Shown here in pieces: positions 11,969 to 24,436 of a stretch of 50,751 nt of DNA. The notes under the pieces are model-generated. The model made no database searches, had not been told where the DNA came from, and saw only the letters and a program-made list of their open reading frames with translations. The stretch is from the NCBI RefSeq assembly GCF_013166655.1, contig NZ_JABKCA010000038.1, positions 1 to 50,751 of the forward strand, in the 5' to 3' direction. Positions within the stretch are counted from its first letter, which is position 1. Every line of letters begins with the position of its first letter. A program made the translations under genes and the position numbers. The DNA comes from Lentimicrobium sp. L6. GTDB taxonomy: Bacteria > Bacteroidota > Bacteroidia > Bacteroidales > UBA12170.

Positions 11969-14839
11969 TTATCTCATAATCGTCATCTTTTTAGAATCTG
12001 TTATTTGTCCGTTAATACTTATTGAATAAAGATATATTCCATTTTTCAAACCATTTGCATCAAAATCAATATAATGAATGCCTTTAGTTTTTGTTCCCTC
12101 TATGTATGTCTTTATTAATTGTCCAGTATAATTGTAAATACTTATCTGCACATTTGATTCCTCCTCCATTTTATAGTAAATCTGAGTAGTACCATTAAAA
12201 GGATTCGGATTATTTTGCAATAGCCCTCCTGCTTCTAAGACATCAATATTTCCTTTTAAGGTAGTGCTCATTTTCTCTTCAGGAATTAATGATAAAAGAA
12301 AGTCTCTATGTTCAAAAAAATGATTTTTTGATTCTGGTTTAAACTCTACTAACTTACCGGAATAGTTAGATTTATCACCTTCATTTTCCATCAAAAAGTA
12401 AACATAACCCAAATCGATTATTGCAAATATACTGTCTTCTATTGTTTCTGGATTAATGATAGTTGCCTCAAAAAAGTTAATTGCTTCTTGATAATTACCT
12501 AATTTTATTTCGCAAACATTTACAAGACGAGTTGCCAAATTTGCAAGAGTTGTATCAAGTACAATACTATCGGTTGTTAGAAAATATTCTTTCAATAACG
12601 AGTAATCGTTAGTAGAAAACTTTTCTATATTAATTAATTCTTTCATAGCAGACTCGGCATATTTTGTTTTGGGGTACTGCTCAATTAGCAATTGAAATGT
12701 AGCTTTTGAATTTGAGTATTGCTGATCGTCAAATTGTTCTTTTCCATCAAAATACATTTGCTCGGCTAATCCTATTGGAATTGGAGAACCATTAGGGCAC
12801 CAAGTTGGACTATATGTAAAATACTCATATGGATATAAATCTTCACTAGCTACAAAATTATTATTTGCTGTCCAGCAGTTATATCGTATATCTTTTTGAT
12901 TTATTTTACCTCCTGTAGGATAGGCGAAATATAATAACGGATCGCTTGGATTACCAATATTATAGTCGTCAATAATAGCGTTATACCGAAAATACCATGG
13001 GAAACTGTATTTTGAGATATACAGCTCATAGCTGGTATTATTTGTTATATAATTCATTTCGTTATACGAAGTAGCATTATAAGCACCATACATTGCTACG
13101 TTACATTTATTATTTAAACGAATGCCATATGCATTATTGTGAATATGATTCATTGAAATGGACACCTTTGAATCGTAAGCAGTAATACCAGTTAAATTAG
13201 AATTGAATATTTCATTGTTATGAATATGATGGTAGTTCGCCATATTTCCATCGCCCGACTGCCATAGCTGAATACCATTATAAAAACCATTCATGGTATT
13301 GTTTTCTATACGATAATTATCGTAGTTGCAAAGATCTATGGCGGCCATAGTAATATCTGTTGTGAAATTACAATTAGCTACTATTGCAGTTTTGTCATTT
13401 TCATCGGTATTTTCAATATAAAGCCAAGTACGGCTAAAATCAGAATTTGTATAAGTTACTGTACCTCTATGAGAACGTATAATATAGCAGTCATCAAAAT
13501 TACAATCATTAACAATAAGATTATCGCCATAATTATGCATGCGAGCTTTTGTAAAAATAGTTTGATTAAGTGTAGTGCTTGCATTTTGATTGTTGATATG
13601 TAAACCGCCAAAATATCCTGAATTACCCGATCGGTTAAAATTGACATTATTTCCTATTTGAATATTGCCTTCTACGATGATTTTGTTAGATGAATTTCCA
13701 CTTATGCTTACGTTGTCTTCTATAATTAAAGTTGCTCCAGCATCAACAATCAAATTAGCATTATTTAGTAGATAAACATCAGCATTGGAAAATAGTTGAA
13801 GTTGTTTACCGGGAAAGACATGTATATCTTTCGAAATTCCTATCAAACCCCGGTATGATTCATTATCTGTAATATCCACGTGGAGTAAGGTTGGGTATTC
13901 TAGTGAAGTATATTCTCCAATGTCACCCTCATCGGATAGTAAGGATTCTGCATCTGGATTATCTTCCTGATCATCTGCCCATTCCCATATTTCATATAAA
14001 CTAAGATAATTATCGTTATTTTCATCGGCATCAGTATAAGGAGTATCGTCATATTCAAGGTTGCCGGTTGGGGATGAACCATTAGCAACGGAAAAAACAT
14101 GAAAAAAAAACTCGCCATGGTGATATGGAATATTATTTATAATTTCATTTTCAATTTCCGGGGTATCATTTGCTCTCCAAGCACTTTCTTCTTCCTCACA
14201 AGCTGATTGGAAAAAGGTAGTAGGCCCTTCAAGTTCATCGGCAAAACCACCTGAATGACATTGCTCCATCCAAAATGCTTTCTTGTTAGCCTGTATTGGA
14301 TTTACAAGTGAAGCAAAGTCGTCGTCAGTAATGACACCATCAATAAGATGAAGCGTAGCATTACCATTTACAAGACCTCCGTGGTCAAATGTCCAAACTA
14401 AAAGAAAATCATCGGGTGTTATCTGGGGAAAATCACCTGTTCCATTAGCCAGACCATTGAAAACAGTGTTTACATTGGCTATGCTTGCAGAATAATCGGT
14501 TACGGTTTCAGTAGGATCAACTGGTTTGTATCTGGCAGCAATATTTGGATTAGTAACTGAGTAATCTTCTCCTCCAGCAAACAGTACAATAATATTCTCC
14601 TGTGAAAAACCTTTTTCCTGCAGCATTTCCCACATTAAATAGGTGTCGTTCCAAAATTCGTCGTAATCTTCAGGTTCATCCTTGTTAATACCTCCATTCC
14701 ATAAATCACTCTCAGGAATGGAATTTTGAGTGGCAGCATAATCACCGGTAATTAAGACAGCATACTTTTTCTGTGCATTTGCTAGATGGCTAATGCCGAA
14801 AGCCATAAATACTACAAATAAAATTTTTACTTTAATCAT
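11969..14839 (-). CDS. T9SS cargo: caspase-like peptidase, EF-hand, beta-helix, sorting domain
   Basis: Large secreted protein of 956 residues with a signal peptide ending ANAQ. Residues about 24-250 look like a clan CD (caspase/legumain-type) cysteine peptidase fold: a beta-strand with KKYAVLITGDYA, the catalytic His in FDHGG (His153) and the Cys in MEQCHSGGF (Cys194). Residues 272-283 (DENNDNYLSLYE) fit an EF-hand calcium loop. Then comes a right-handed beta-helix with N/I-rich repeats (about 330-660), a helical TPR-like part (about 690-850), and a type A T9SS sorting domain starting NNPNPFNG. Export across the outer membrane and sorting-domain removal by the T9SS sortase are expected. Peptidase activity and target are inferred. 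The 481-residue gene upstream shares the sorting domain. Confidence 0.85.
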   Translation of the reverse strand: MIKVKILFVVFMAFGISHLANAQKKYAVLITGDYAATQNSIPESDLWNGGINKDEPEDYDEFWNDTYLMWEMLQEKGFSQENIIVLFAGGEDYSVTNPNIAARYKPVDPTETVTDYSASIANVNTVFNGLANGTGDFPQITPDDFLLVWTFDHGGLVNGNATLHLIDGVITDDDFASLVNPIQANKKAFWMEQCHSGGFADELEGPTTFFQSACEEEESAWRANDTPEIENEIINNIPYHHGEFFFHVFSVANGSSPTGNLEYDDTPYTDADENNDNYLSLYEIWEWADDQEDNPDAESLLSDEGDIGEYTSLEYPTLLHVDITDNESYRGLIGISKDIHVFPGKQLQLFSNADVYLLNNANLIVDAGATLIIEDNVSISGNSSNKIIVEGNIQIGNNVNFNRSGNSGYFGGLHINNQNASTTLNQTIFTKARMHNYGDNLIVNDCNFDDCYIIRSHRGTVTYTNSDFSRTWLYIENTDENDKTAIVANCNFTTDITMAAIDLCNYDNYRIENNTMNGFYNGIQLWQSGDGNMANYHHIHNNEIFNSNLTGITAYDSKVSISMNHIHNNAYGIRLNNKCNVAMYGAYNATSYNEMNYITNNTSYELYISKYSFPWYFRYNAIIDDYNIGNPSDPLLYFAYPTGGKINQKDIRYNCWTANNNFVASEDLYPYEYFTYSPTWCPNGSPIPIGLAEQMYFDGKEQFDDQQYSNSKATFQLLIEQYPKTKYAESAMKELINIEKFSTNDYSLLKEYFLTTDSIVLDTTLANLATRLVNVCEIKLGNYQEAINFFEATIINPETIEDSIFAIIDLGYVYFLMENEGDKSNYSGKLVEFKPESKNHFFEHRDFLLSLIPEEKMSTTLKGNIDVLEAGGLLQNNPNPFNGTTQIYYKMEEESNVQISIYNYTGQLIKTYIEGTKTKGIHYIDFDANGLKNGIYLYSISINGQITDSKKMTIMR

Positions 14840-14945
14840 AATTTCTAAATTTGCGACTCAAACTGGTTGCTGGAGCAGTATGATTTTTTCTTTCGCGATG
14901 ATTAGTCATACTTGCTCCTTTTAGCCGGTTTTGTCAGTTAACTTT

Positions 14946-16391
14946 TTATTTTATTATTTCCACTAAACGTGTTATAAATTGCCTGCCAGTTTGCAGACGG
15001 ATTAGGTACAAGCCGCTTTTAACCTCCTTATTGTTTTTATCTGTACCCTTCCATATAATTTGATACTTGTTAGGCGTTTGTTTTTTTTCTAATAAAGTGT
15101 TTATTAATTTACCCTGTATATCATAGATTTTTATTGAAATGAGTTCTGTTTCTTTTATTGAATATGAAATTGTTGTATGAGCTTTTGTGGGATTGGGATA
15201 AATATTGTATAAATCAATGACTATGGGGCTATTTTCTACACTGGTTGTTATTTCGTGTTTTCTTATTACGATAGGTATGTCAGGGTTAGGGGAAGAGCTA
15301 TACGCTTTGGCACTTACAAGATATAAATAATTAGCTTTACTAATTAATTTATTACCATAATTTCCAAAATCACCTTCATCAATTATTTCTCCCACCCATT
15401 CATTATTCAGTAATTGATAATGAACCAATCGATATCCATCTTCAAATTCTTCGTTATCAATAATGTGGGTTTTGTTGTTTAAATCAACAATAATGGCTTG
15501 CTCGCTTGCATCTTCAGCTAATATTATCGGATTTGACCAATTAGTACCGTCAAATTTTGTAAAGAGCGTTCCGTTATCTGGAGGAATATTGTCATTTATC
15601 ATTTGTCTCCAAACAATTTGGGGGTTGTTATCATTATCAAGTGTGATATCATTTCCCGCCCAGGCATCATAATCATAACTTACTTGCAATAAATCCGACC
15701 ATGCATTATTCCAATATGTGCAATAAACTATCCTTTGATCATAAGCAGACTGACCCTCAAAATACCTATAACCGGAACAGTGTATCTTATTTGTATTGTC
15801 AACTACTGCTCTTTCCAAATAATAACTATCATTATTATTATATGGGATTTGTATTTCACCCCAAACACCATTTTCCAACACTCGGTAAAATGTAGTTCCA
15901 TTTTGGAAATCATGAAACCAGAAGCAGTATAGTTTATCGTTGTGGTCAATTACCAGTCGATTGTGCCTGGCTCCGGTCCAAGCAATTGAAACAGTATCAT
16001 AAGAACTCCACATATTGTCTTCATATTTCCTGTATACAATAAGTGTACCTCCTGGGTTGATTACATCATAATCGTAAGTTAAATGCAAATTGTTTTCTGA
16101 GTCGGCCACAATATGTGGGTTTTCCATCCAAAGACTAGTGTTTTGTGATACATTTTCTGGTGTGCTCCAAGTCTGTCCATCATCAGTAGATTTACTGTAA
16201 TATATATGCTTATAGTTTGATTCAACTTTATAACTCCATACGCAATGTATAATTCCTAAATTGTCAATACAAAAGTCGGAATTATTATTTACACCTTGCA
16301 AAGTGCTTATTTGTATTGGTTCTGTCCAGTTTTGTGCAATAGTATTTATTGTTAATGTACTTAATAATAATATGTATAGTATTTTTTTCAT
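14946..16391 (-). CDS. T9SS cargo with Asp-box (sialidase-like) propeller
   Basis: A 481-residue secreted protein with a signal peptide ending TIAQ. The body consists of repeated W-rich, D/N-rich strands like a six-bladed sialidase-type propeller, with at least one canonical Asp box (STDDGQTW). Catalytic Arg-triad residues of true sialidases were not identified, so a non-enzymatic or unknown glycan-related role is as likely. The C-terminus (IDLYNIYPNPTKAHTTISY ... GLYLIRLQTG) is a type A T9SS sorting domain. It lies 106 bases upstream of the caspase-like gene in the same direction; the two may form one secreted-protein unit. Confidence 0.85.
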   Translation of the reverse strand: MKKILYILLLSTLTINTIAQNWTEPIQISTLQGVNNNSDFCIDNLGIIHCVWSYKVESNYKHIYYSKSTDDGQTWSTPENVSQNTSLWMENPHIVADSENNLHLTYDYDVINPGGTLIVYRKYEDNMWSSYDTVSIAWTGARHNRLVIDHNDKLYCFWFHDFQNGTTFYRVLENGVWGEIQIPYNNNDSYYLERAVVDNTNKIHCSGYRYFEGQSAYDQRIVYCTYWNNAWSDLLQVSYDYDAWAGNDITLDNDNNPQIVWRQMINDNIPPDNGTLFTKFDGTNWSNPIILAEDASEQAIIVDLNNKTHIIDNEEFEDGYRLVHYQLLNNEWVGEIIDEGDFGNYGNKLISKANYLYLVSAKAYSSSPNPDIPIVIRKHEITTSVENSPIVIDLYNIYPNPTKAHTTISYSIKETELISIKIYDIQGKLINTLLEKKQTPNKYQIIWKGTDKNNKEVKSGLYLIRLQTGRQFITRLVEIIK

Positions 16392-16590
16392 TTTAATAAG
16401 TTTTAAAAAATATATCTATTATTGACATTTTAATATTCACTTTAGCCATTTCATTATTTATTTGGTGTCAGCCCTAATTTAAGCTCTTTTGGCTTTCTCT
16501 TTGTTTGTTTTGTGGTTTGAGAAAACCAAATGTGCTTAAATGTGCTGTGGGCTTTCGCCTTGTTGCCAACTTGTTTATATAAGTAAGTTT

Positions 16591-16630
16591 CTTCAGTATA
16601 CTTGCCGCCATATGAGTAGGTATACTGAAG
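16591..16630. repeat. 11-bp inverted repeat upstream of the aromatic operon
   Basis: CTTCAGTATAC (16591-16601) and GTATACTGAAG (16620-16630) are perfect inverted copies around an 18-base loop. They lie about 180 bases upstream of the first leader peptide, in the otherwise gene-free part 16392-16806. It could be an operator or simply a hairpin. The rest of that stretch shows only weak palindromes and no gene. Confidence 0.5.
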
Positions 16631-16806
16631 TTTGGTAAAATTAACCCAAATACCTATACCACCAAAAGGATGTACTTAAAAACTTTCAATTTATTCAAAT
16701 TATGATTGACATGTAATCTCTTAGAAATTAAAATTTTCACATTTCTAAAAAAAACCATCTCTCATTCCAAAAAAAAGTTCTTTATTTGCAATCAGAAACA
16801 AACAAC

Positions 16807-16860
16807 ATGATTTTAAACATTGCTACATATTTTTATTTCTTCTTTTATTGGACACAATAA
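16807..16860 (+). CDS. aromatic leader peptide 1 (attenuator)
   Basis: A 17-codon open frame, MILNIATYFYFFFYWTQ, ending in TAA. Eight consecutive codons (16828-16851) specify Tyr, Phe or Trp. It ends 36 bases before an intrinsic terminator (16897-16923) and lies upstream of pheA. This is the arrangement of a classical ribosome-mediated attenuator: shortage of charged tRNA-Phe/Tyr stalls the ribosome and prevents termination. Stalling should leave GGGG (16865-16868) free to pair with CCCC (16899-16902) in the terminator's left arm, with an optional ATA/TAT inner pairing; this antiterminator is weaker than that of the second unit. The peptide itself is probably not functional. Confidence 0.85.
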   Translation: MILNIATYFYFFFYWTQ

Positions 16861-16896
16861 GAGCGGGGAATTTATATGTAGTCATACAAAATATAG

Positions 16897-16923
16897 AGCC
16901 CCTTTTTGAAAGGGGCTTTTTTT
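16897..16923 (+). terminator. attenuator terminator 1
   Basis: The stem AGCCCCTTT/AAAGGGGCT (16897-16905 with 16909-16917) has a 3-base loop and is followed by seven T residues. It is placed between leader peptide 1 and leader peptide 2, on the sense strand of the aromatic operon. Confidence 0.92.
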
Positions 16924-16935
16924 ATGCAAAATATT

Positions 16936-17016
16936 ATGAATTTATATAGCAGCATTTTTTCTTATTTCTTTTTCTGGTATTTCTATTATGGAAACACCCG
17001 AGACTGTATTGTATAG
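16936..17016 (+). CDS. aromatic leader peptide 2 (attenuator)
   Basis: A 26-codon open frame ending in TAG; an in-frame ATG at 16924 would add four residues. It contains nine consecutive aromatic codons (16963-16989, YFFFWYFYY) plus earlier Tyr and Phe codons. Directly after them the message reads CCCGAGAC (16997-17004), which is the exact complement of the left arm of terminator 2. A ribosome stalled on the aromatic codons would leave it exposed, while one that reaches the stop codon would cover it. That is the geometry expected for attenuation by Phe/Tyr/Trp availability. It shares no long nucleotide identity with leader 1, so the two units may be an old duplication or may have arisen independently. 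Confidence 0.88.
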   Translation: MNLYSSIFSYFFFWYFYYGNTRDCIV

Positions 17017-17050
17017 AAAAAATGAATTATACAAATCAAAGCGTCTCGGG
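16997..17050 (+). promoter_or_regulatory. antiterminator of attenuator 2
   Basis: CCCGAGAC (16997-17004) pairs over 8 uninterrupted bases with GTCTCGGG (17043-17050). The second segment is also the left arm of terminator 2, so the two structures exclude each other. Confidence 0.8.
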
Positions 17051-17074
17051 AAAATATCCTGAGGCGCTTTTTTT
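17040..17074 (+). terminator. attenuator terminator 2
   Basis: An 11-pair stem (17040-17050 with 17058-17068, including two G-T pairs) with a 7-base loop, followed by TTTTTTT. It ends 25 bases before the pheA start codon, so readthrough is needed to express the operon. Confidence 0.92.
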
Positions 17075-17099
17075 ATTTAAGAATACTTAATCAAAAAAA

Positions 17100-17960
17100 A
17101 TGGTAGTAAGCATACAAGGAATTAAAGGGGCATTTCATCAAGAAGCTGCTGAAGAATACTTCGGACAGAAAACAGAGATATTACCGCAAGTCACCTTTCA
17201 GGGTTTAGTGGATTCGGTGAGCCATGAGGAGGCTGAATTTGGGATTATGGCTATAGAAAATACCATTTCGGGTACCATTCATAATAACTTCAACTTGATT
17301 CGTCAAGCCAACTTGCAGATTATAGGTGAGGTATATTTGCGTATTGAACAAAACTTGGTAGCACTCCCCGGAACTCGTCTCGACCAACTCACACAAGTAG
17401 AATCACACTATATGGCCATCAATCAATGCCGTGAGTTTTTCCGAAGCCATCCTCATATTAAACTAGTGGATGCAGAAGATACCGCTATGAGCATGAGAAA
17501 TATTGCGGAAAACAATCTTCAAAATGCGGGAGCCATAGGTAGTAGATTGGGTGCAGAGCAATATGGTCTGGAAATCATAGCTCCAAGTATTGAAACCAAT
17601 AAGCAAAACTATACTCGTTTTCTCACCCTAAGAAAGCGAGGAGGGCAAAGTCCAGAAGATTTCAATAAAGCTTCATTAGCACTTTTACTACCACATCAAC
17701 AAGGTAGTTTGGCAAAAATCTTAAGCATTATTGATATTTACGGAGTCAATCTGAGCAAAATAGAATCCATGCCTGTTATAGGAGAACCTTGGCACTACCT
17801 CTTTTACATCGATGTGCTTTTTGATAAAGTGAAAATATATCAAGATATGTTACAAGCCATCCGCCCACTCATAGATGAGCTGCATATTCTAGGTGAATAC
17901 CCTTTTGGACAAAAATCATTTAATAATATTAATAATACCGATTATGACACCAGCAAATAG
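17100..17960 (+). CDS. pheA: prephenate dehydratase
   Basis: Converts prephenate to phenylpyruvate, the committed step to phenylalanine. The protein has 286 residues. The catalytic domain (about 1-185) starts SIQGIKGAFHQEAA and holds the conserved Thr-Arg-Phe in NYTRFL. A C-terminal ACT domain (about 195-275, GSLAKILSIIDIYGVNLSKIES) gives feedback control by Phe. There is no fused chorismate mutase; that activity is on the DAHP synthase gene downstream. First gene of the aromatic operon, read only if both upstream attenuators are passed. Its last 17 bases overlap the aminotransferase start. Confidence 0.95.
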   Translation: MVVSIQGIKGAFHQEAAEEYFGQKTEILPQVTFQGLVDSVSHEEAEFGIMAIENTISGTIHNNFNLIRQANLQIIGEVYLRIEQNLVALPGTRLDQLTQVESHYMAINQCREFFRSHPHIKLVDAEDTAMSMRNIAENNLQNAGAIGSRLGAEQYGLEIIAPSIETNKQNYTRFLTLRKRGGQSPEDFNKASLALLLPHQQGSLAKILSIIDIYGVNLSKIESMPVIGEPWHYLFYIDVLFDKVKIYQDMLQAIRPLIDELHILGEYPFGQKSFNNINNTDYDTSK

Positions 17961-19104
17961 ACTACAAACTGTAGAAGAATACTATTTCTCTAAAAAAAGA
18001 GAAGAGATTCTAGCTCTGGAAGAAAAAGGCATGAATATCATCAATATGGGAATTGGAAATCCTGACCTTCCTACTCATCCACAGGTGATTGCAGAATTGG
18101 AGCAAGCGGCTTCTGAAATGGGCGCCAACTATTACCAATCCTATAAAGGATTGCCTGAGTTGAGAAATGCTTTTCAAAATTGGTATCTGAAAACCTATCA
18201 AGTTCAGCTGAATCCTGAAACAGAGATTTTGCCTTTAATGGGTTCCAAAGAGGCCATCATGCACATCCACATGGCCTTTTGTAATCCAGGTGATGAAATA
18301 CTGATTCCCAACCCGGGTTATCCTACCTATGCCTCAACGGCCAAACTTTTGGCAGTGAATGTAAAAGAATATGGTATAAAAGAAGAGCATAATTGGCAAC
18401 CCGATTTTGAGGAGTTAGAAGGCCTTGTTAATGAAAAAACCAAAATTCTTTGGATGAATTATCCTCATATGCCAACTGGTGCAAAAGCTCAAAAAGAAAG
18501 CCTAAAATCTTTGGTGGCCTTTGCCAAAAAATATCAAATACTATTGGTGAATGACAATCCATATAGCTCCATTTTAAATGATGAAGCCATAAGTATTCAT
18601 TCTTTTTGCGATAGAAACGACCCTGTTATTGAGCTCAACTCATTAAGCAAATCCCATAATATGGCGGGCTGGAGAGTAGGAATGGTTTCCGGAAAAGCAG
18701 AAATCATTAACCATATTTTAAAGGTAAAAAGCAATTTTGATTCTGGGATGTTTAAACCCATTCAGAAAGCAGCTATAAAAGCCATGGATTTAGGACAAGT
18801 TTGGTTTGATAGCATCAATGCGGAATACGGCAATAGAAGAGAAAAAATTTGGAGGATGCTAGATATTTTAGAATGTGAGTATAAAAAAGATGGAGCTGGG
18901 CTTTTTGTTTGGGCTAAGATTCCCAAGTCTTTTGAGTCGGGTGAGAAATTTAGTGATCACCTACTTTATGAAAAGGGCATTTTCGCTAGTCCGGGGAGCA
19001 TATTTGGCAGCAATGGGAAACAATACATCCGTTTTTCTTTATGTGCACCTCAAGCAGACATAGACCAATCCATGGAGCGTATCACACAAAAAACTACCGC
19101 CTAA
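17944..19104 (+). CDS. class I/II aminotransferase, probable aromatic
   Basis: PLP-dependent fold-type I aminotransferase of 386 residues. The PLP-lysine lies in SLSKSHNMAGWRVG, with NPGYPTY and MNYPHMPTG as further family blocks. The start is placed at the ATG of MTPANRLQTVEEYYF (17944), which overlaps pheA by 17 bases; a longer upstream frame has no homologous look. Position between pheA and tyrA suggests transamination of phenylpyruvate, 4-hydroxyphenylpyruvate or prephenate, completing Phe and Tyr synthesis. The sequence resembles the LL-DAP/aspartate aminotransferase group, so substrate choice rests on context. Confidence 0.9.
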   Translation: MTPANRLQTVEEYYFSKKREEILALEEKGMNIINMGIGNPDLPTHPQVIAELEQAASEMGANYYQSYKGLPELRNAFQNWYLKTYQVQLNPETEILPLMGSKEAIMHIHMAFCNPGDEILIPNPGYPTYASTAKLLAVNVKEYGIKEEHNWQPDFEELEGLVNEKTKILWMNYPHMPTGAKAQKESLKSLVAFAKKYQILLVNDNPYSSILNDEAISIHSFCDRNDPVIELNSLSKSHNMAGWRVGMVSGKAEIINHILKVKSNFDSGMFKPIQKAAIKAMDLGQVWFDSINAEYGNRREKIWRMLDILECEYKKDGAGLFVWAKIPKSFESGEKFSDHLLYEKGIFASPGSIFGSNGKQYIRFSLCAPQADIDQSMERITQKTTA

Positions 19105-19946
19105 TGAAAGTTTGTATTATAGGATTAGGACTCATGGGTGGCTCTATGGCCATCGACCTAAAAAAGCGAGGATTTACCAAGCATATCATAGGAGTGGATA
19201 ATAATAAGCTTCATGCCCATACCGCAGAGAAACTAGGCTTAGCTGATGAAATATGTGATTTAGAGGAGGGTGTAAAAAAAGCTGATTTAATCGTATTAGC
19301 CACTCCTGCCAATGTGAGTTTACATCTGCTTCCGAAAATCTTAGATATGGTGGAAGAACAAGTCATTACCGATGTGGGGTCCATTAAAAAGAACATCTGT
19401 GAACGAGTAAAGAGTCACAGCAAAAGAAGTCAGTATGTAGCAGCCCATCCAATGGCCGGTACCGAACATTCCGGACCATGGGCTGCTATTCCTAATCTCT
19501 TCGATGCCAAGGCTGTTATTTTTACAGAAGCCGAAAACAGCAGTAAAGAAGCTATAGAAATGGTGAGTCAACTCTACGAAACTCTAAATATGCCTATAGT
19601 TTATATGAGCGCCAGCAATCATGATATTCATGCAGCTTATGTGTCTCATATTTCTCATATCAGCTCCTTTGCTTTGGCTTTAACAGTTTTAGAAAAGGAA
19701 AAGAATGAAAAGAATATTTTCAATTTAGCCAGTGGTGGCTTTGATTCCACGGTAAGATTGGCCAAAAGTTCAGCTGAAATGTGGACGCCCATTTTTGAGC
19801 AAAATTCAGAGAATATAACGGCTGTTTTGGATAATTACATTCAGCAACTCCAATTATTTAAAGAAAATATCCTCCAAAGAAAAACGGAGGATTTAAACCA
19901 AATGATAAATAAAGCAAATAGTATTAAACGCGTTTTAAAAGCCTAA
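19104..19946 (+). CDS. tyrA: prephenate dehydrogenase
   Basis: Oxidatively decarboxylates prephenate to 4-hydroxyphenylpyruvate for tyrosine. The 280-residue protein starts with a Rossmann motif, IIGLGLMGGS (5-14). HPMAGTEHSG carries the catalytic His region, and SHISHISSFALA belongs to the helical dimerisation domain. The start ATG shares one base with the aminotransferase stop (TAATG), which indicates translational coupling. There is no ACT or chorismate mutase extension. Confidence 0.94.
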   Translation: MKVCIIGLGLMGGSMAIDLKKRGFTKHIIGVDNNKLHAHTAEKLGLADEICDLEEGVKKADLIVLATPANVSLHLLPKILDMVEEQVITDVGSIKKNICERVKSHSKRSQYVAAHPMAGTEHSGPWAAIPNLFDAKAVIFTEAENSSKEAIEMVSQLYETLNMPIVYMSASNHDIHAAYVSHISHISSFALALTVLEKEKNEKNIFNLASGGFDSTVRLAKSSAEMWTPIFEQNSENITAVLDNYIQQLQLFKENILQRKTEDLNQMINKANSIKRVLKA

Positions 19947-20105: not shown

Positions 20106-21191
20106 ATGGAACAACATATAGAAATTAAAAAATTAGAAGATTGGGGAATCAGCTCCATAGAAAAGCCACTATTCATTTCAGGCCCTTGTAGCGCTGAAAC
20201 AGAAGAACAAGTGGTCAATACCGCCAAAGAATTAAAGAACACTGGAGTTCAAGTGTACCGAGCCGGAATCTGGAAACCTAGAACCCGCGCCAATACCTTT
20301 GAAGGAGTAGGTAGCCAAGGATTAGAATGGCTAAAAACGGCAAAGCAAGAAACTGGTCTACTCACTTCCACCGAAGTGGCTCAGGTAAAACACGTTTATG
20401 AAGCCTTAAAAGCTGGCGTTGATATCATTTGGATTGGGGCTCGAACCTCTGCAAATCCGTTTGCTATGCAAGAAATAGCCGACTCTTTAAGAGGCGTTAA
20501 TATTCCTGTTTTTGTAAAAAACCCCATTAATCCTGATGTGGAGCTGTGGATTGGAGCCATTGAGAGACTCAATCAAGCAGGAATTGATAAAATTGGAGCC
20601 ATTCACCGAGGATTCTCCACTTATGAGCAAAGTCTATTTAGAAATATACCTAAATGGCAAATCCCCATTGAATTGAAACGCCGACTTCCAAACTTACCTT
20701 TGATTTGTGATCCAAGTCATATTGGTGGTAGAAGGAGTCTTATTCAAAGTTTATCACAAAAGGCATTAGATTTAAATTTCGATGGATTGATGGTAGAAGT
20801 ACACCCCGACCCAGATTGTGCTTGGAGCGATGCCAAACAACAAATTACTCCAGCAGCTTTTGATGAAATGCTTGAGAAATTAGTTTTCCGCCAAGTAAAA
20901 CCAGAGAATGTGAGTTTGGATGAATTGGAGGATTTACGTTATAAAATAGACATATACGATCAAGAAATCATCAAGATAATTGGTAAGAGAATGGAGGAAG
21001 TGGAAGCCATTGGTAGGTATAAAAAAGAGAATAATATGACTGTCTTACAATCGAAGCGATGGGATCATCTTTTAGATAAAAACATTAAAAAAGGAGAAGA
21101 AGCTCAGTTGAGTCCAGAAATCATTGCGGCTGTATTTAAGGCTATACATCAGGAGTCTATTAACAAACAAACACAGATTCTAAATGGTTAA
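20106..21191 (+). CDS. bifunctional DAHP synthase / chorismate mutase
   Basis: Catalyses the first step of the shikimate pathway and also chorismate to prephenate. Residues about 1-260 form a class I DAHP synthase of the KDO8P-like subgroup: FISGPCSAETEEQ, GIWKPRTRANTFEGVG, WIGARTSANPF and ICDPSHIGGRR. Residues about 268-355 form an AroQ-type chorismate mutase (LEDLRYKIDIYDQEIIKIIG...). This domain order is common in Bacteroidota. Fusion to chorismate mutase usually makes the synthase sensitive to prephenate. It belongs with pheA and tyrA. Confidence 0.94.
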   Translation: MEQHIEIKKLEDWGISSIEKPLFISGPCSAETEEQVVNTAKELKNTGVQVYRAGIWKPRTRANTFEGVGSQGLEWLKTAKQETGLLTSTEVAQVKHVYEALKAGVDIIWIGARTSANPFAMQEIADSLRGVNIPVFVKNPINPDVELWIGAIERLNQAGIDKIGAIHRGFSTYEQSLFRNIPKWQIPIELKRRLPNLPLICDPSHIGGRRSLIQSLSQKALDLNFDGLMVEVHPDPDCAWSDAKQQITPAAFDEMLEKLVFRQVKPENVSLDELEDLRYKIDIYDQEIIKIIGKRMEEVEAIGRYKKENNMTVLQSKRWDHLLDKNIKKGEEAQLSPEIIAAVFKAIHQESINKQTQILNG

Positions 21192-21406: not shown

Positions 21407-22663
21407 ATGAACAAAACAATTTATCCTTCAAAATATCAGCGTGTTGTTAAAGCACCCTCCTCAAAAAGTTATATGCAAAGAGCTATCGCTATAGCTTTAT
21501 TAGCTGATGGGGAAACTCAGATTAGTAATGCCGATTTTAGTAATGATAGCATGTCCATTTTAAAAGTAGCAGAGCAATTGGGTGCTGAGGTTCATATTTC
21601 TGGTGATCAGGTATGTATTTTAGGAAAGCGAGACTTCAAAGGAAAAACCTTATCGGCTGGGGAGTCTGGCTTGGGTATTCGGACCTTCACTCCTATTGCT
21701 GCATTATTCCCTCAAACCATAAAGCTTACTGGGGAGGGCTCGCTATTAAAACGCCCTATCAACATGGTAGAAACTCCTTTGAGAGATTTAGGAGTAACAG
21801 TGGAAAGTCATAATGGATATCTTCCTCTTACTGTTTCTGGGCCCTTAAAAGGTGGAGTAGCAGAAGTTGACGGGAGTATTAGTTCACAAGTCCTCACAGG
21901 CCTACTGATTGCCCTACCCATGGCAGAAAACGATAGCCTTTTAAAAGTCAATAAACTCCAAAGTATTCCCTATATCGACATGACTTTAGACATCCTCAAA
22001 GCATTTGGAGCCCAAGTGGAGCAAGAGAATTACGAAACTTTCAAAATAAAAGGAAGCCAAAAATACAAAGCCAGAAACTATAAGATAGAAGGCGATTGGA
22101 GTGGCGCGGCTTTTCACTTGGTGGCTGGAGCCATTGCTGGTGAAGTAGATGTAAAAGGCTTAAACCCTCAATCACTTCAAGCAGACAGAGCCCTACTCGA
22201 TGCATTAGAGAAATCAGGTGCAAAAGTTGAAATCTCTGAGGAGTCTATAAAAATCAGCAAAGCTCCCTTGCAGGCTTTCGATTTTGATGCCACCCATTGT
22301 CCTGATCTATTCCCTCCTCTGGTTGTTTTAGCAGCAGCTTGCAAAGGTGAAACAAGAATAACAGGCGTCACAAGATTGTATCATAAAGAAAGCAATAGAG
22401 CTTTGGTTCTTCAGCAAGAGATGGGGAAATTAGGCATAAAAATAAAACTAGATGGAGATGTGATGATTATAAAAGGAGGAGAAATCAGTGGAGGAAAAAT
22501 CCATTCCAATAATGACCATAGAATTGCCATGGCAGGTGCAATTGCTGCATTAATTGCTTCAGGGCCCATTGAAATTGAACATGCAGAGGCTATTAATAAG
22601 AGTTATCCTGGTTTTTTTGAGGATTTAGGGTCGTCGACCCCTTTAGCGGGTCGACGAACCTAG
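21407..22663 (+). CDS. aroA: EPSP synthase (3-phosphoshikimate 1-carboxyvinyltransferase)
   Basis: Joins shikimate-3-phosphate and PEP, the sixth step of the shikimate pathway. The 418-residue protein has KAPSSKSYMQRAIA (substrate Lys/Ser/Arg), GESGLGIRTFTPIAAL in place of the proteobacterial SGTTLR block, the conserved Asp in CPDLFPPLVVLAA, and NNDHRIAMA near the C-terminus. The end is odd: after YPGFFEDL the last 11 residues (GSSTPLAGRRT) and the stop are encoded by the REP palindrome at 22625-22663, so the native C-terminus has been replaced by repeat sequence. The enzyme core is complete. Probably the last gene of the aromatic operon. Confidence 0.95.
   Translation: MNKTIYPSKYQRVVKAPSSKSYMQRAIAIALLADGETQISNADFSNDSMSILKVAEQLGAEVHISGDQVCILGKRDFKGKTLSAGESGLGIRTFTPIAALFPQTIKLTGEGSLLKRPINMVETPLRDLGVTVESHNGYLPLTVSGPLKGGVAEVDGSISSQVLTGLLIALPMAENDSLLKVNKLQSIPYIDMTLDILKAFGAQVEQENYETFKIKGSQKYKARNYKIEGDWSGAAFHLVAGAIAGEVDVKGLNPQSLQADRALLDALEKSGAKVEISEESIKISKAPLQAFDFDATHCPDLFPPLVVLAAACKGETRITGVTRLYHKESNRALVLQQEMGKLGIKIKLDGDVMIIKGGEISGGKIHSNNDHRIAMAGAIAALIASGPIEIEHAEAINKSYPGFFEDLGSSTPLAGRRT
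22625..22663. repeat. REP palindrome, left copy
   Basis: Stem AGGGTCGTCGACCC (22627-22640) pairs with GGGTCGACGAACCT (22648-22661) with one mismatch and a 7-base loop. The copy at 23276-23315 has the same orientation. Its right edge CTAG provides the TAG stop of aroA on the plus strand and of the RAYT gene on the minus strand. Confidence 0.9.
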
Positions 22664-23235
22664 TCTTCTAGAAGATACCTCCGTATTTTGAAATCTTCAT
22701 GACGGAAATTGTGGTACTCAACAAATTCTTCCTTGTTGTTGAATATCTGAAACACCTTTTCTCTAGCAACAATAGTATCTTCATCAGATAACATGGCTGG
22801 ATAGGAACTGAATTTATAATCTCTGAAGTTTTTCACTAAGTCATGCTTTGCAGCATTGTGATTTACATAAAATATAAGCCTTTTTAAATAGTCCTCTCTT
22901 CTGACCAGAATCCTTCTAAATGGTTTCATGAATAATCCTCCGATTCTATCCTTTCGCAAATTAACTTTGTTGGTATAACTCACGATGAGGCTTCCTATTT
23001 GTCTACTAAATTGATCTCCATTTTCATCATTCACTCGTAATACAAAATGGTAATGGTTGGGTATAAGACAATAGGCATATAAATCGCAGTAATCATAAAG
23101 GTATTCAATAAATTTATCCAGAAACATATAATAATCCTTCTCTCGAAAGAATACTTTCTGATGATTCAATCCTCTATTATAGATGTGATATACATTCCCA
23201 GGTTCGATGCGCGTTAAAATCTTTTCTGAGGGCAT
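22660..23235 (-). CDS. REP-associated tyrosine transposase (RAYT)
   Basis: HUH/Y1 transposase of the IS200-like superfamily, about 191 residues. The metal-binding HUH motif is HYH in LIPNHYHFVLRV. The nucleophilic Tyr is probably that of SYTNKVNLRKDRIGG, and KPFRRILVRREDYLKRLIFYVNHN is the typical RAYT helix region. I place the start at the ATG of MPSEKILTRIEPG (23235) because the longer open frame runs into the REP palindrome and would encode repeat-derived residues. The stop shares CTAG with the aroA stop. Confidence 0.9.
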   Translation of the reverse strand: MPSEKILTRIEPGNVYHIYNRGLNHQKVFFREKDYYMFLDKFIEYLYDYCDLYAYCLIPNHYHFVLRVNDENGDQFSRQIGSLIVSYTNKVNLRKDRIGGLFMKPFRRILVRREDYLKRLIFYVNHNAAKHDLVKNFRDYKFSSYPAMLSDEDTIVAREKVFQIFNNKEEFVEYHNFRHEDFKIRRYLLED

Positions 23236-23275
23236 GATATTTTTTTGCCATAAAGATAAGGAAAAAAAGAAAGCT

Positions 23276-23315
23276 TTAGGGTCGTCGACCCTCTTAAGAG
23301 GGTCGACGACCCTAG
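23276..23315. repeat. REP palindrome, right copy
   Basis: A perfect 36-base palindrome (23278-23313) centred on CTTAAG, with arms beginning AGGGTCGTCGACCC. Its CTAG edge supplies the TAG stop of the PagL-like gene. Confidence 0.92.
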
Positions 23316-24436
23316 TAAATCGTATACCCAACAGCCCATTCAAAATAATCAGCAGCACCGGCATGAGCTTTTATAGTAACTCCCGCAAAGAAATGATCAG
23401 TGATGCGATAGCGCATACCTACTCTTTCGTAATACACTGTTTTTTCATCGTTTTCTTCATTGCGATGTAAATAGAAACCGATAGCGATTGGCACATATAA
23501 TTTCTTTGTTAAGGCCCACTCCCAAGAACCAGTAAGTGCATATGTATAGGATTTGGAAAAAGTAGATTGATCTGATTTATTTCTATAATTGGATTTATCA
23601 GAATAAAAAATATCCAAACCAGCTCCAATTCTATATTTATAATTAATCTGTCTTAAGAAATCGATAGTTAAAGTAGTTTTCAAGTAGTTATCTCCTCCAA
23701 CTTGATAGTTCTTACTTCCCACTCCAAGAGCTACATTCACCAGGTTATGTCTTTCGAATTTCGGGATAGGGCGACCTTCTTTAACAACCTCCACTTTGTC
23801 CATCTTATAACTTACACCAACTGTTATAGGAATTAGGTTTAAACCGTAGTTTGGTTGCTTGAAAGAGCCATTGGAAAAATGTTTGAATCCGAAAGAACCA
23901 TTAGCTGACCATCGGTCATTAAATTTATAATTAGCTACAAAAGCTAAATGTACATAACAGTTTTTATAGGAACCTACGAATACATTGGTTGGGTTTTTAA
24001 TAGGGTCGTAAGGATTGAATTTATAAGATAAACCAAATGCTCCAGAATAAGAGAAAGACCATTTTTTGAGGCCCTCAAATTTGAGGGGGATGGTTAAGAA
24101 GAAATATACCGCTCCCGGATTTCCGATGTCGGTATTATGGAAAGTAGAGGTATAAAGTCCAACTCCAAAATAAGGACGACGATATACATTACTATAAATA
24201 TCATCTGCATTAGCATTACGAAACCCCAAACGTATATCTGCACCATTATAATAGGATGCATCCACCACTTGCTGAGAAAATTCAGTATTATTACCCAACA
24301 TGGCACCATTCTCAAATCTTAGATCAAAGGTTTTTGAGAACTTCTTAGTTTTAACTTTAGCCTCCTCCGTTTGCGCATATACCGAAAAGGATAAACACAA
24401 GAATAGGATAGCAAGTATAAATTTGGATGATTTCAT
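23312..24436 (-). CDS. PagL-like acyloxyacyl hydrolase (lipid A deacylase family)
   Basis: Predicted outer-membrane beta-barrel of 374 residues with a signal peptide ending VYAQ. The motif FKHFSNGSFKQPNYGLNL matches the PagL active-site region (His and Ser in H-x-S, followed by the N/P-rich segment), so removal of the 3-O-acyl chain of lipid A is likely. It is about twice the length of PagL: after residue ~230 a second strand-rich part (KFERHNLVNVALGVGSKNYQ... to GYTIY) could be a further barrel section. The last Tyr codon and TAG stop abut the REP palindrome. A -7 box lies 26 bases upstream of the ATG. Confidence 0.8.
   Translation of the reverse strand: MKSSKFILAILFLCLSFSVYAQTEEAKVKTKKFSKTFDLRFENGAMLGNNTEFSQQVVDASYYNGADIRLGFRNANADDIYSNVYRRPYFGVGLYTSTFHNTDIGNPGAVYFFLTIPLKFEGLKKWSFSYSGAFGLSYKFNPYDPIKNPTNVFVGSYKNCYVHLAFVANYKFNDRWSANGSFGFKHFSNGSFKQPNYGLNLIPITVGVSYKMDKVEVVKEGRPIPKFERHNLVNVALGVGSKNYQVGGDNYLKTTLTIDFLRQINYKYRIGAGLDIFYSDKSNYRNKSDQSTFSKSYTYALTGSWEWALTKKLYVPIAIGFYLHRNEENDEKTVYYERVGMRYRITDHFFAGVTIKAHAGAADYFEWAVGYTIY

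Follow-up and report, generated by a model that had tools for sequence, protein, structure and literature searches.

The region upstream of pheA in Lentimicrobium sp. L6 very probably carries two complete ribosome-mediated attenuators in series on one leader RNA, both responding to the same signal. Attenuation is a textbook switch, usually described with one leader and one terminator, and the arrangement reported here is probably a doubled version of this classic feedback switch. It was found in a window of 50,751 nucleotides (the whole stretch of DNA analysed; NCBI RefSeq assembly GCF_013166655.1, contig NZ_JABKCA010000038.1, positions 1 to 50,751 of the forward strand), for which a preliminary description had proposed two consecutive aromatic-amino-acid attenuators in front of pheA. 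This proposal remains the best reading of the locus, and both the recurrence of the units in relatives and the distribution of a promoter motif agree with it.

The leaders, terminators and operon genes all lie on the forward (+) strand, and both leaders are ATG frames read from the sequence. Leader peptide 1, MILNIATYFYFFFYWTQ, is encoded at 16807-16860 and contains eight consecutive aromatic codons (YFYFFFYW, 16828-16851), and leader peptide 2, MQNIMNLYSSIFSYFFFWYFYYGNTRDCIV, is encoded at 16924-17016 and contains nine (YFFFWYFYY, 16963-16989). The terminator scan placed intrinsic terminator 1 at 16895-16919 with a 7-T run at 16917-16923 (folding energy -14.9 kcal/mol, z -3.1), and intrinsic terminator 2 at 17038-17070 with a 7-T run at 17068-17074 (-21.5 kcal/mol, z -6.2). 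The ATG of leader 2 follows the T run of terminator 1 without a gap, both terminators lie ahead of the pheA start (17100), each behind its leader frame, and the whole element, counted from the start of leader 1 through the last T behind terminator 2, measures 268 bases. The two frames with blocks of 8 and 9 aromatic codons and the terminator with a 7-T run behind each of them were thereby confirmed as previously noted, and the extent, given earlier as within 270 bases, was borne out by measurement.

The position of the units ahead of a Phe/Tyr operon was likewise supported, as pheA, tyrA, the DAHP synthase/chorismate mutase gene and aroA were matched to Pfam. pheA encodes prephenate dehydratase (17100-17960; PF00800, E 5.6e-55) and is followed by the second gene of the cluster, for a class I/II aminotransferase (17944-19104; PF00155, E 4.2e-65), tyrA for prephenate dehydrogenase (19101-19946; PF02153 and PF20463), a DAHP synthase/chorismate mutase fusion (20106-21191; PF00793 and PF01817), and aroA for EPSP synthase (21407-22663; PF00275, E 6.1e-97), which is the last same-strand gene of the cluster. 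A minus-strand frame at 22660-23364 shares 4 bases with the 3' end of aroA, and its sequence resembles that of REP-associated transposases. Upstream, at 11969-16391 on the minus strand, two large frames (481 aa and 956 aa) run divergently from the operon, the 481-aa frame carrying a Por secretion tail (type IX sorting signal).

A candidate antiterminator was identified for each unit on the same strand. Antiterminator 2 (16997-17050, +) pairs CCCGAGAC (16997-17004) with GTCTCGGG (17043-17050) over 8 bp; its folding energy is -17.2 kcal/mol (z -6.0, equalled by 0 of 200 shuffles), that of terminator 2 being -21.5, and its 5' arm lies inside the tail of leader 2, ahead of the stop codon. Antiterminator 1 (16865-16902, +), in which GGGG (16865-16868) pairs with CCCC (16899-16902) together with an inner A-U rich helix, has its 5' arm 5-8 nt past the stop of leader 1 and is weaker (-10.6 kcal/mol, z -2.7, equalled by 3 of 200 shuffles) than terminator 1 (-14.9 kcal/mol). 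Unit 1 failed the ungapped antiterminator test described below, its G-C core being just 4 bp. As antiterminator 1 is weak and below terminator 1 in stability, unit 1 may be leaky or weakly regulated. A search for cross-pairing of 16853-16924 with 16997-17075 found no helix of at least 6 bp with 4 G-C pairs.

Several chance controls were applied. Scanning of 1.4 kb gave five terminator-like sites, compared with 0.7 ± 0.8 in shuffles, three of the five being overlapping or opposite-strand versions of terminator 1. The aromatic codon blocks emphasised in the preliminary description are present, but such a run by itself is nothing unusual here: the 5.1-Mb genome contains 66 runs of six Phe/Tyr codons and 73 instances of the reversed control pattern, so that a codon run was rejected as evidence in its own right. 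When 30 of the 66 runs were examined as loci, a short ATG frame with a terminator was found solely at the two overlapping pheA ones. The combination of leader and terminator is not a product of chance, because no such unit arose in 840 dinucleotide shuffles of pheA upstream regions (0/840) or on their reverse strands (0/280).

Upstream regions for this comparison were gathered with a PheA search, which gave matches in 32 of 60 relatives, 181 of 393 genomes of the order and 108 of 395 genomes of the class; the survey also took contigs of named genomes, from which 80 loci were kept. From 290 upstream sequences gathered, ten were removed because they fell below 150 nt or were identical to another, and the 280 kept (132 from the order, 78 from the class and 70 from named contigs) are non-identical and mostly from Bacteroidota. 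The unit caller accepted only ATG starts and a single type of terminator. It found one or more aromatic leaders with a terminator in 231 of the 280, a sample limited to genomes matching this PheA and picked from the best matches downward, not randomly, with some matching genomes omitted. One unit was called in 201 upstream regions, two in 30 (the window included) and none in 49, and 3 of the 261 units are doubtful, their terminator beginning ahead of the leader stop. Tandem counts are probably low because the caller misses some second units: G267 and Ancylomarina L031 were scored as single though two leaders are visible, and in L031 two leaders and two terminators had appeared in the first scan. 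Aromatic leader attenuation appears to be widespread before pheA in the sampled Bacteroidota, and conservation in relatives, which the preliminary description had asked to see examined, was found for the unit (231/280) and for the tandem (30).

The tandem is the minority state. Of the 210 family-labelled genomes, 25 were called tandem; they belong to 15 of the 62 families, and nine of these 15 families also contain single-called members, of which G267 (f61) is likely a caller miss. The remaining five tandems are on named contigs, of which three belong to MAGs (Salinivirgaceae, L032; Saprospiraceae, L055; Bacteroidales, L060) and two to Chitinophaga (L102 and L110). The closest relative, G003 (PheA identity 90%), has kept both leaders and both terminators: its leader 1 is MILNIATYFYSFFYWTQ, its leader 2 has two substitutions, the stem differences in its terminator 2 preserve pairing (judged by eye), and its antiterminator 2 helix of 8 bp is identical. 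Among eight genomes of the same genus, four yielded no called unit, and there the leader may have changed or another start may be used; in these (G004, G005, G007 and G010; loci L008, L021, L012 and L015, respectively) a terminator precedes pheA in three of the four. Recent tandem duplication was considered as the origin of the pairs and rejected, since the similarity between the two units within a genome is little higher than that between units from different genomes (score per base 0.13 within and 0.08 between genomes, standard deviation 0.07), L055 being perhaps an exception (0.32).

Antiterminators were sought throughout the set as pairing of the stretch after the aromatic run with the 5' arm of the terminator, at a score of at least 14 and with an ungapped minimum of 5 bp; three of the 261 units were too short, which left 258 testable. 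A helix of this score was found in 240 of the 258, compared with 24% in shuffles of the same stretch, and within the tandems (n = 30) it was present in 26 first and 27 second units. Measured from the leader stop, the 5' arm falls between -25 and +15 nt for 233 of these 240 helices, and none of the 240 arm midpoints exceeds +12, a limit passed by 368 of 1146 shuffled helices of any score. The range of -25 to +15 nt around a stop codon is about the footprint of a ribosome there, and because the pairing stretch sits near the stop codon, a ribosome at the stop would mask the arm. Arm positions are bimodal, falling either right after the stop or about 10-20 nt before its end, within the coding tail. 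Pairing of the antiterminator arm with the upstream leader (the classical 1:2 hairpin), taken as at least 60% paired, was seen in 82%, compared with 58% of shuffles, which is a modest excess.

The two units of a tandem are built alike in some respects and not in others. Distances from the aromatic run to the terminator are similar (medians 51 nt in unit 1 and 53.5 nt in unit 2), and the coding tail after the run has a median of 3 residues in unit 1 and 9 in unit 2 (paired p 1e-4). Second leaders mostly have a longer tail, which holds the antiterminator arm, and first leaders mostly end shortly after the run. Leader 2 starts 5-38 nt past the terminator 1 hairpin in 28 of the 30 tandems, with 5-6 nt in the window and G003; the two outliers have spacings of -33, where the start was probably misassigned, and 151.

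The features of an attenuator, namely short frames rich in the relevant codons, intrinsic terminators and antiterminators, are present in this locus, and the position of the antiterminators suggests control by the ribosome. From the leader frames, terminators, antiterminator pairing, recurrence and lack of a promoter motif between the units, as read in the sequence, we infer translation, stalling, masking and a multiplication of two steps. Both units would respond to charged tRNA for Phe and Tyr, with some contribution of Trp. While RNA polymerase transcribes either leader, a ribosome would trail behind it. When aromatic aminoacyl-tRNA is abundant, the ribosome would reach the leader stop and cover the 5' arm of the antiterminator, just ahead of the stop in unit 2 and just past it in unit 1, and the terminator would fold. 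When aminoacyl-tRNA is short, the ribosome would stall in the aromatic run and leave the arm free, so that the antiterminator could fold and the polymerase continue. The polymerase would have to clear both checkpoints before pheA, with read-through approximating the product of the two, and because read-through would roughly multiply over two checkpoints, lower basal expression and a steeper response are predicted.

A serial arrangement presupposes one transcript, and this was approached through the motif TAnnTTTG, which we take to be the Bacteroides-type -7 promoter consensus. In the 70 nt ahead of the leader it was present for 142 of 198 singles, 16 of 29 first leaders and 0 of 30 second leaders (three singles and one first leader having been excluded for scant upstream sequence), and mostly begins 21-40 nt ahead of the leader ATG. 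Shuffled first-leader upstreams contain it in 7.8%, which amounts to about 2 of 30 by chance; the value of 0/30 is therefore near chance level, and it is the contrast with first leaders that counts. No exact TAnnTTTG occurs at 16401-17100 of the window, where a weak candidate -7 element, TTTATTTG (16781-16788, +), has one mismatch to the motif and lies 18 nt upstream of leader 1. As the motif precedes first and not second leaders, the start is most likely ahead of unit 1, and one transcript with two checkpoints probably spans both units, the motif count covering promoters of the TAnnTTTG type only. The least probable of the alternatives is that unit 2 has a promoter of its own inside unit 1, in which case the attenuators would work in parallel on two transcripts and not in series. 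A sigma-70-like match (9/12) at 16906-16935 would suit such a promoter, although matches of this kind number 8, compared with 6.6 ± 2.7 in shuffles; against it stand the 30 tandems without TAnnTTTG in the 70 nt before leader 2, and the fact that leader 2 of the window begins directly at the T run of terminator 1. It is also very unlikely that the pair forms a two-input gate, in which the leaders sense different amino acids (for example Tyr in one and Phe or Trp in the other) and passage needs both to be short. The order of aromatic residues does differ between leader 1 and leader 2, and Tyr makes up a slightly larger share in unit 1 (0.46, compared with 0.42 in unit 2; p 0.07, no clear difference), but the Phe/Tyr/Trp totals of the 30 tandem pairs are similar, with 139/117/10 in first and 168/118/15 in second leaders. 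Trp is present in 10 first and 14 second leaders of these pairs, and the counts in the 201 single leaders are 1051/756/50. The eight trpE tandems described below also have Trp pairs in both units, which follows from the construction of the caller.

Because both units read the same Phe/Tyr/Trp mixture, a steeper one-signal switch appears to fit better than a gate with two inputs; where a "sharper or two-input switch" had been envisaged before, the sharper form is favoured and the two-input form is unsupported by the codon composition. An improbable explanation is that only one of the two units regulates, the other being a remnant of leader turnover that is decayed or constitutive and has a leaky terminator. 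The weakness of antiterminator 1 in the window and the coexistence of single and tandem forms within families would both fit turnover of this kind. However, G003 keeps both frames and both terminators at 90% PheA identity, an antiterminator (score of at least 14) is found in 26 of the first units and 27 of the second units among the 30 tandems, and the two units within one genome are not near-copies. Two attenuators acting in series on the same signal remain the preferred reading.

The enterobacterial Phe leader is single and Phe-rich. The window differs from it in having two units in series, Tyr and Trp codons besides Phe, and a Bacteroidota origin. No Rfam match above cut-off was obtained over the entire window. 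At a lax threshold, the leader-peptide attenuator model for Phe (Phe_leader, RF01859) aligned at full length to both units separately (16806-16925 and 16939-17076), a likeness that is a hint only, as its scores of 29.8 and 27.9 bits are below the cut-off of 55 and under the 32.1 bits of an unrelated sRNA model. Bacteroid-trp (RF01692; Weinberg et al. 2010, PMC2864571), which Rfam lists as a tryptophan peptide leader RNA from Bacteroidetes, differs in comprising Trp leaders; in the accessible part of that paper, Bacteroid-trp is named in a table and the mentions of tandems concern other motifs. Work on Flavobacterium psychrophilum reported clues to attenuation by leader peptides, together with a structured but unexplained 5' element at pheA (PMC9723704), and small ORFs resembling attenuation leaders, in one instance several within a single 5' UTR, were noted in long 5' UTRs of Bacteroides thetaiotaomicron (PMC7366714); the available text of these two papers gives no tandem attenuator and no pheA leader sequence.

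Tandem sensors described elsewhere resemble the window in part. The Salmonella mgtCBR leader (Lee and Groisman 2012, PMC3641672) likewise has two short leader ORFs on a single leader RNA, by which entry of transcription into the coding region is controlled; the available part of the paper describes two signals, ATP and proline, acting additively, and terms this tandem a singular example. Within that same text, two terminators are noted for tandem metE riboswitches and are lacking in mgtCBR, whereas the window has two terminators and, as it appears, one kind of signal. A different signal for each unit, as in mgtCBR, was not found at pheA, where the codon composition of the units suggests the same signal. 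ErmB (PMC8274638) also has two leader peptides before one gene and one signal, erythromycin, but there an antibiotic acts on a resistance gene through translational attenuation, with no transcription terminators mentioned in the text available. In tandem homologous riboswitches (PMC9481103), two complete switches for the same signal stand in series, each with its own termination decision, and a more digital response is expected according to the accessible portion of that paper; these sense ligands via aptamers, whereas the sensor in the window would be a ribosome translating a peptide leader. Within the openly accessible literature consulted (papers in part), no same-signal tandem of leader-peptide transcription attenuators was found. 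The novelty claimed in the preliminary description is accordingly narrower than stated: leader-peptide attenuation in Bacteroidota is known (RF01692, PMC9723704), and what appears to be new is the one-signal tandem of transcription attenuators.

A tandem was also found at the trpE locus of the window's genome (L338, G000 contig 45, 594-889), where two WW leaders, each with a terminator, lie in series in the order MSTFAFEMNNNMNINNWWLLDL, terminator (699-723), MTTTMTISAKYWWRYSGIQT, terminator (849-869) and trpE at 889. The trpE set comprised 90 upstream regions of the order, the window's genome included, from 295 genomes searched; one Trp unit was called in 44 of them, two in 8 and none in 38, and shuffles of these regions gave none (0/450). 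Two of the 60 units (G012 and G162) are doubtful, their terminator overlapping the leader. Fifty-five genomes are in both the pheA and the trpE set, with a pheA tandem in 11 and a trpE tandem in one, and the sole genome among them with tandems at both loci is that of the window. The trpE units of this genome scored 38.1 and 26.4 bits with Bacteroid-trp (cut-off 49) and 35.6 and 24.6 bits with Trp_leader (cut-off 41), all below the cut-offs, which none of 12 trpE loci (the 8 tandem ones among them) reached.

The pheA and trpE tandems suggest that leader-peptide control may be sharpened in the same manner as by tandem riboswitches, and families with single and tandem leaders form natural pairs for measuring the contribution of the second copy. 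More tentatively, and less likely than not, same-signal series attenuators at pheA and trpE may have been built repeatedly in Bacteroidota with their units interlocked, such that checkpoint 2 proofreads checkpoint 1. This possibility arises because leader 2 begins few bases past terminator 1. Once folded, the hairpin of terminator 1 would keep ribosomes from loading on leader 2, and leaky read-through of checkpoint 1 would then meet an untranslated unit 2 and end in termination by default.

Other amino-acid operons of the window's genome were also inspected. Three HMGL-like loci, which may not be leuA, had no Leu/Ile/Val leader. At hisG (L341, G000 contig 131, 124-238), one His-rich leader, MYLSQLHHHHFHICPQANRR, with a terminator was found, and a second leader could have been lost there because the contig offers only 290 nt upstream. 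In another genome (G034 contig 7, about 153134-153762; L023/L431), pheA and trpE are divergent neighbours, and their intergenic region carries a WWW leader frame toward trpE, with no terminator called, and tandem aromatic leaders toward pheA.
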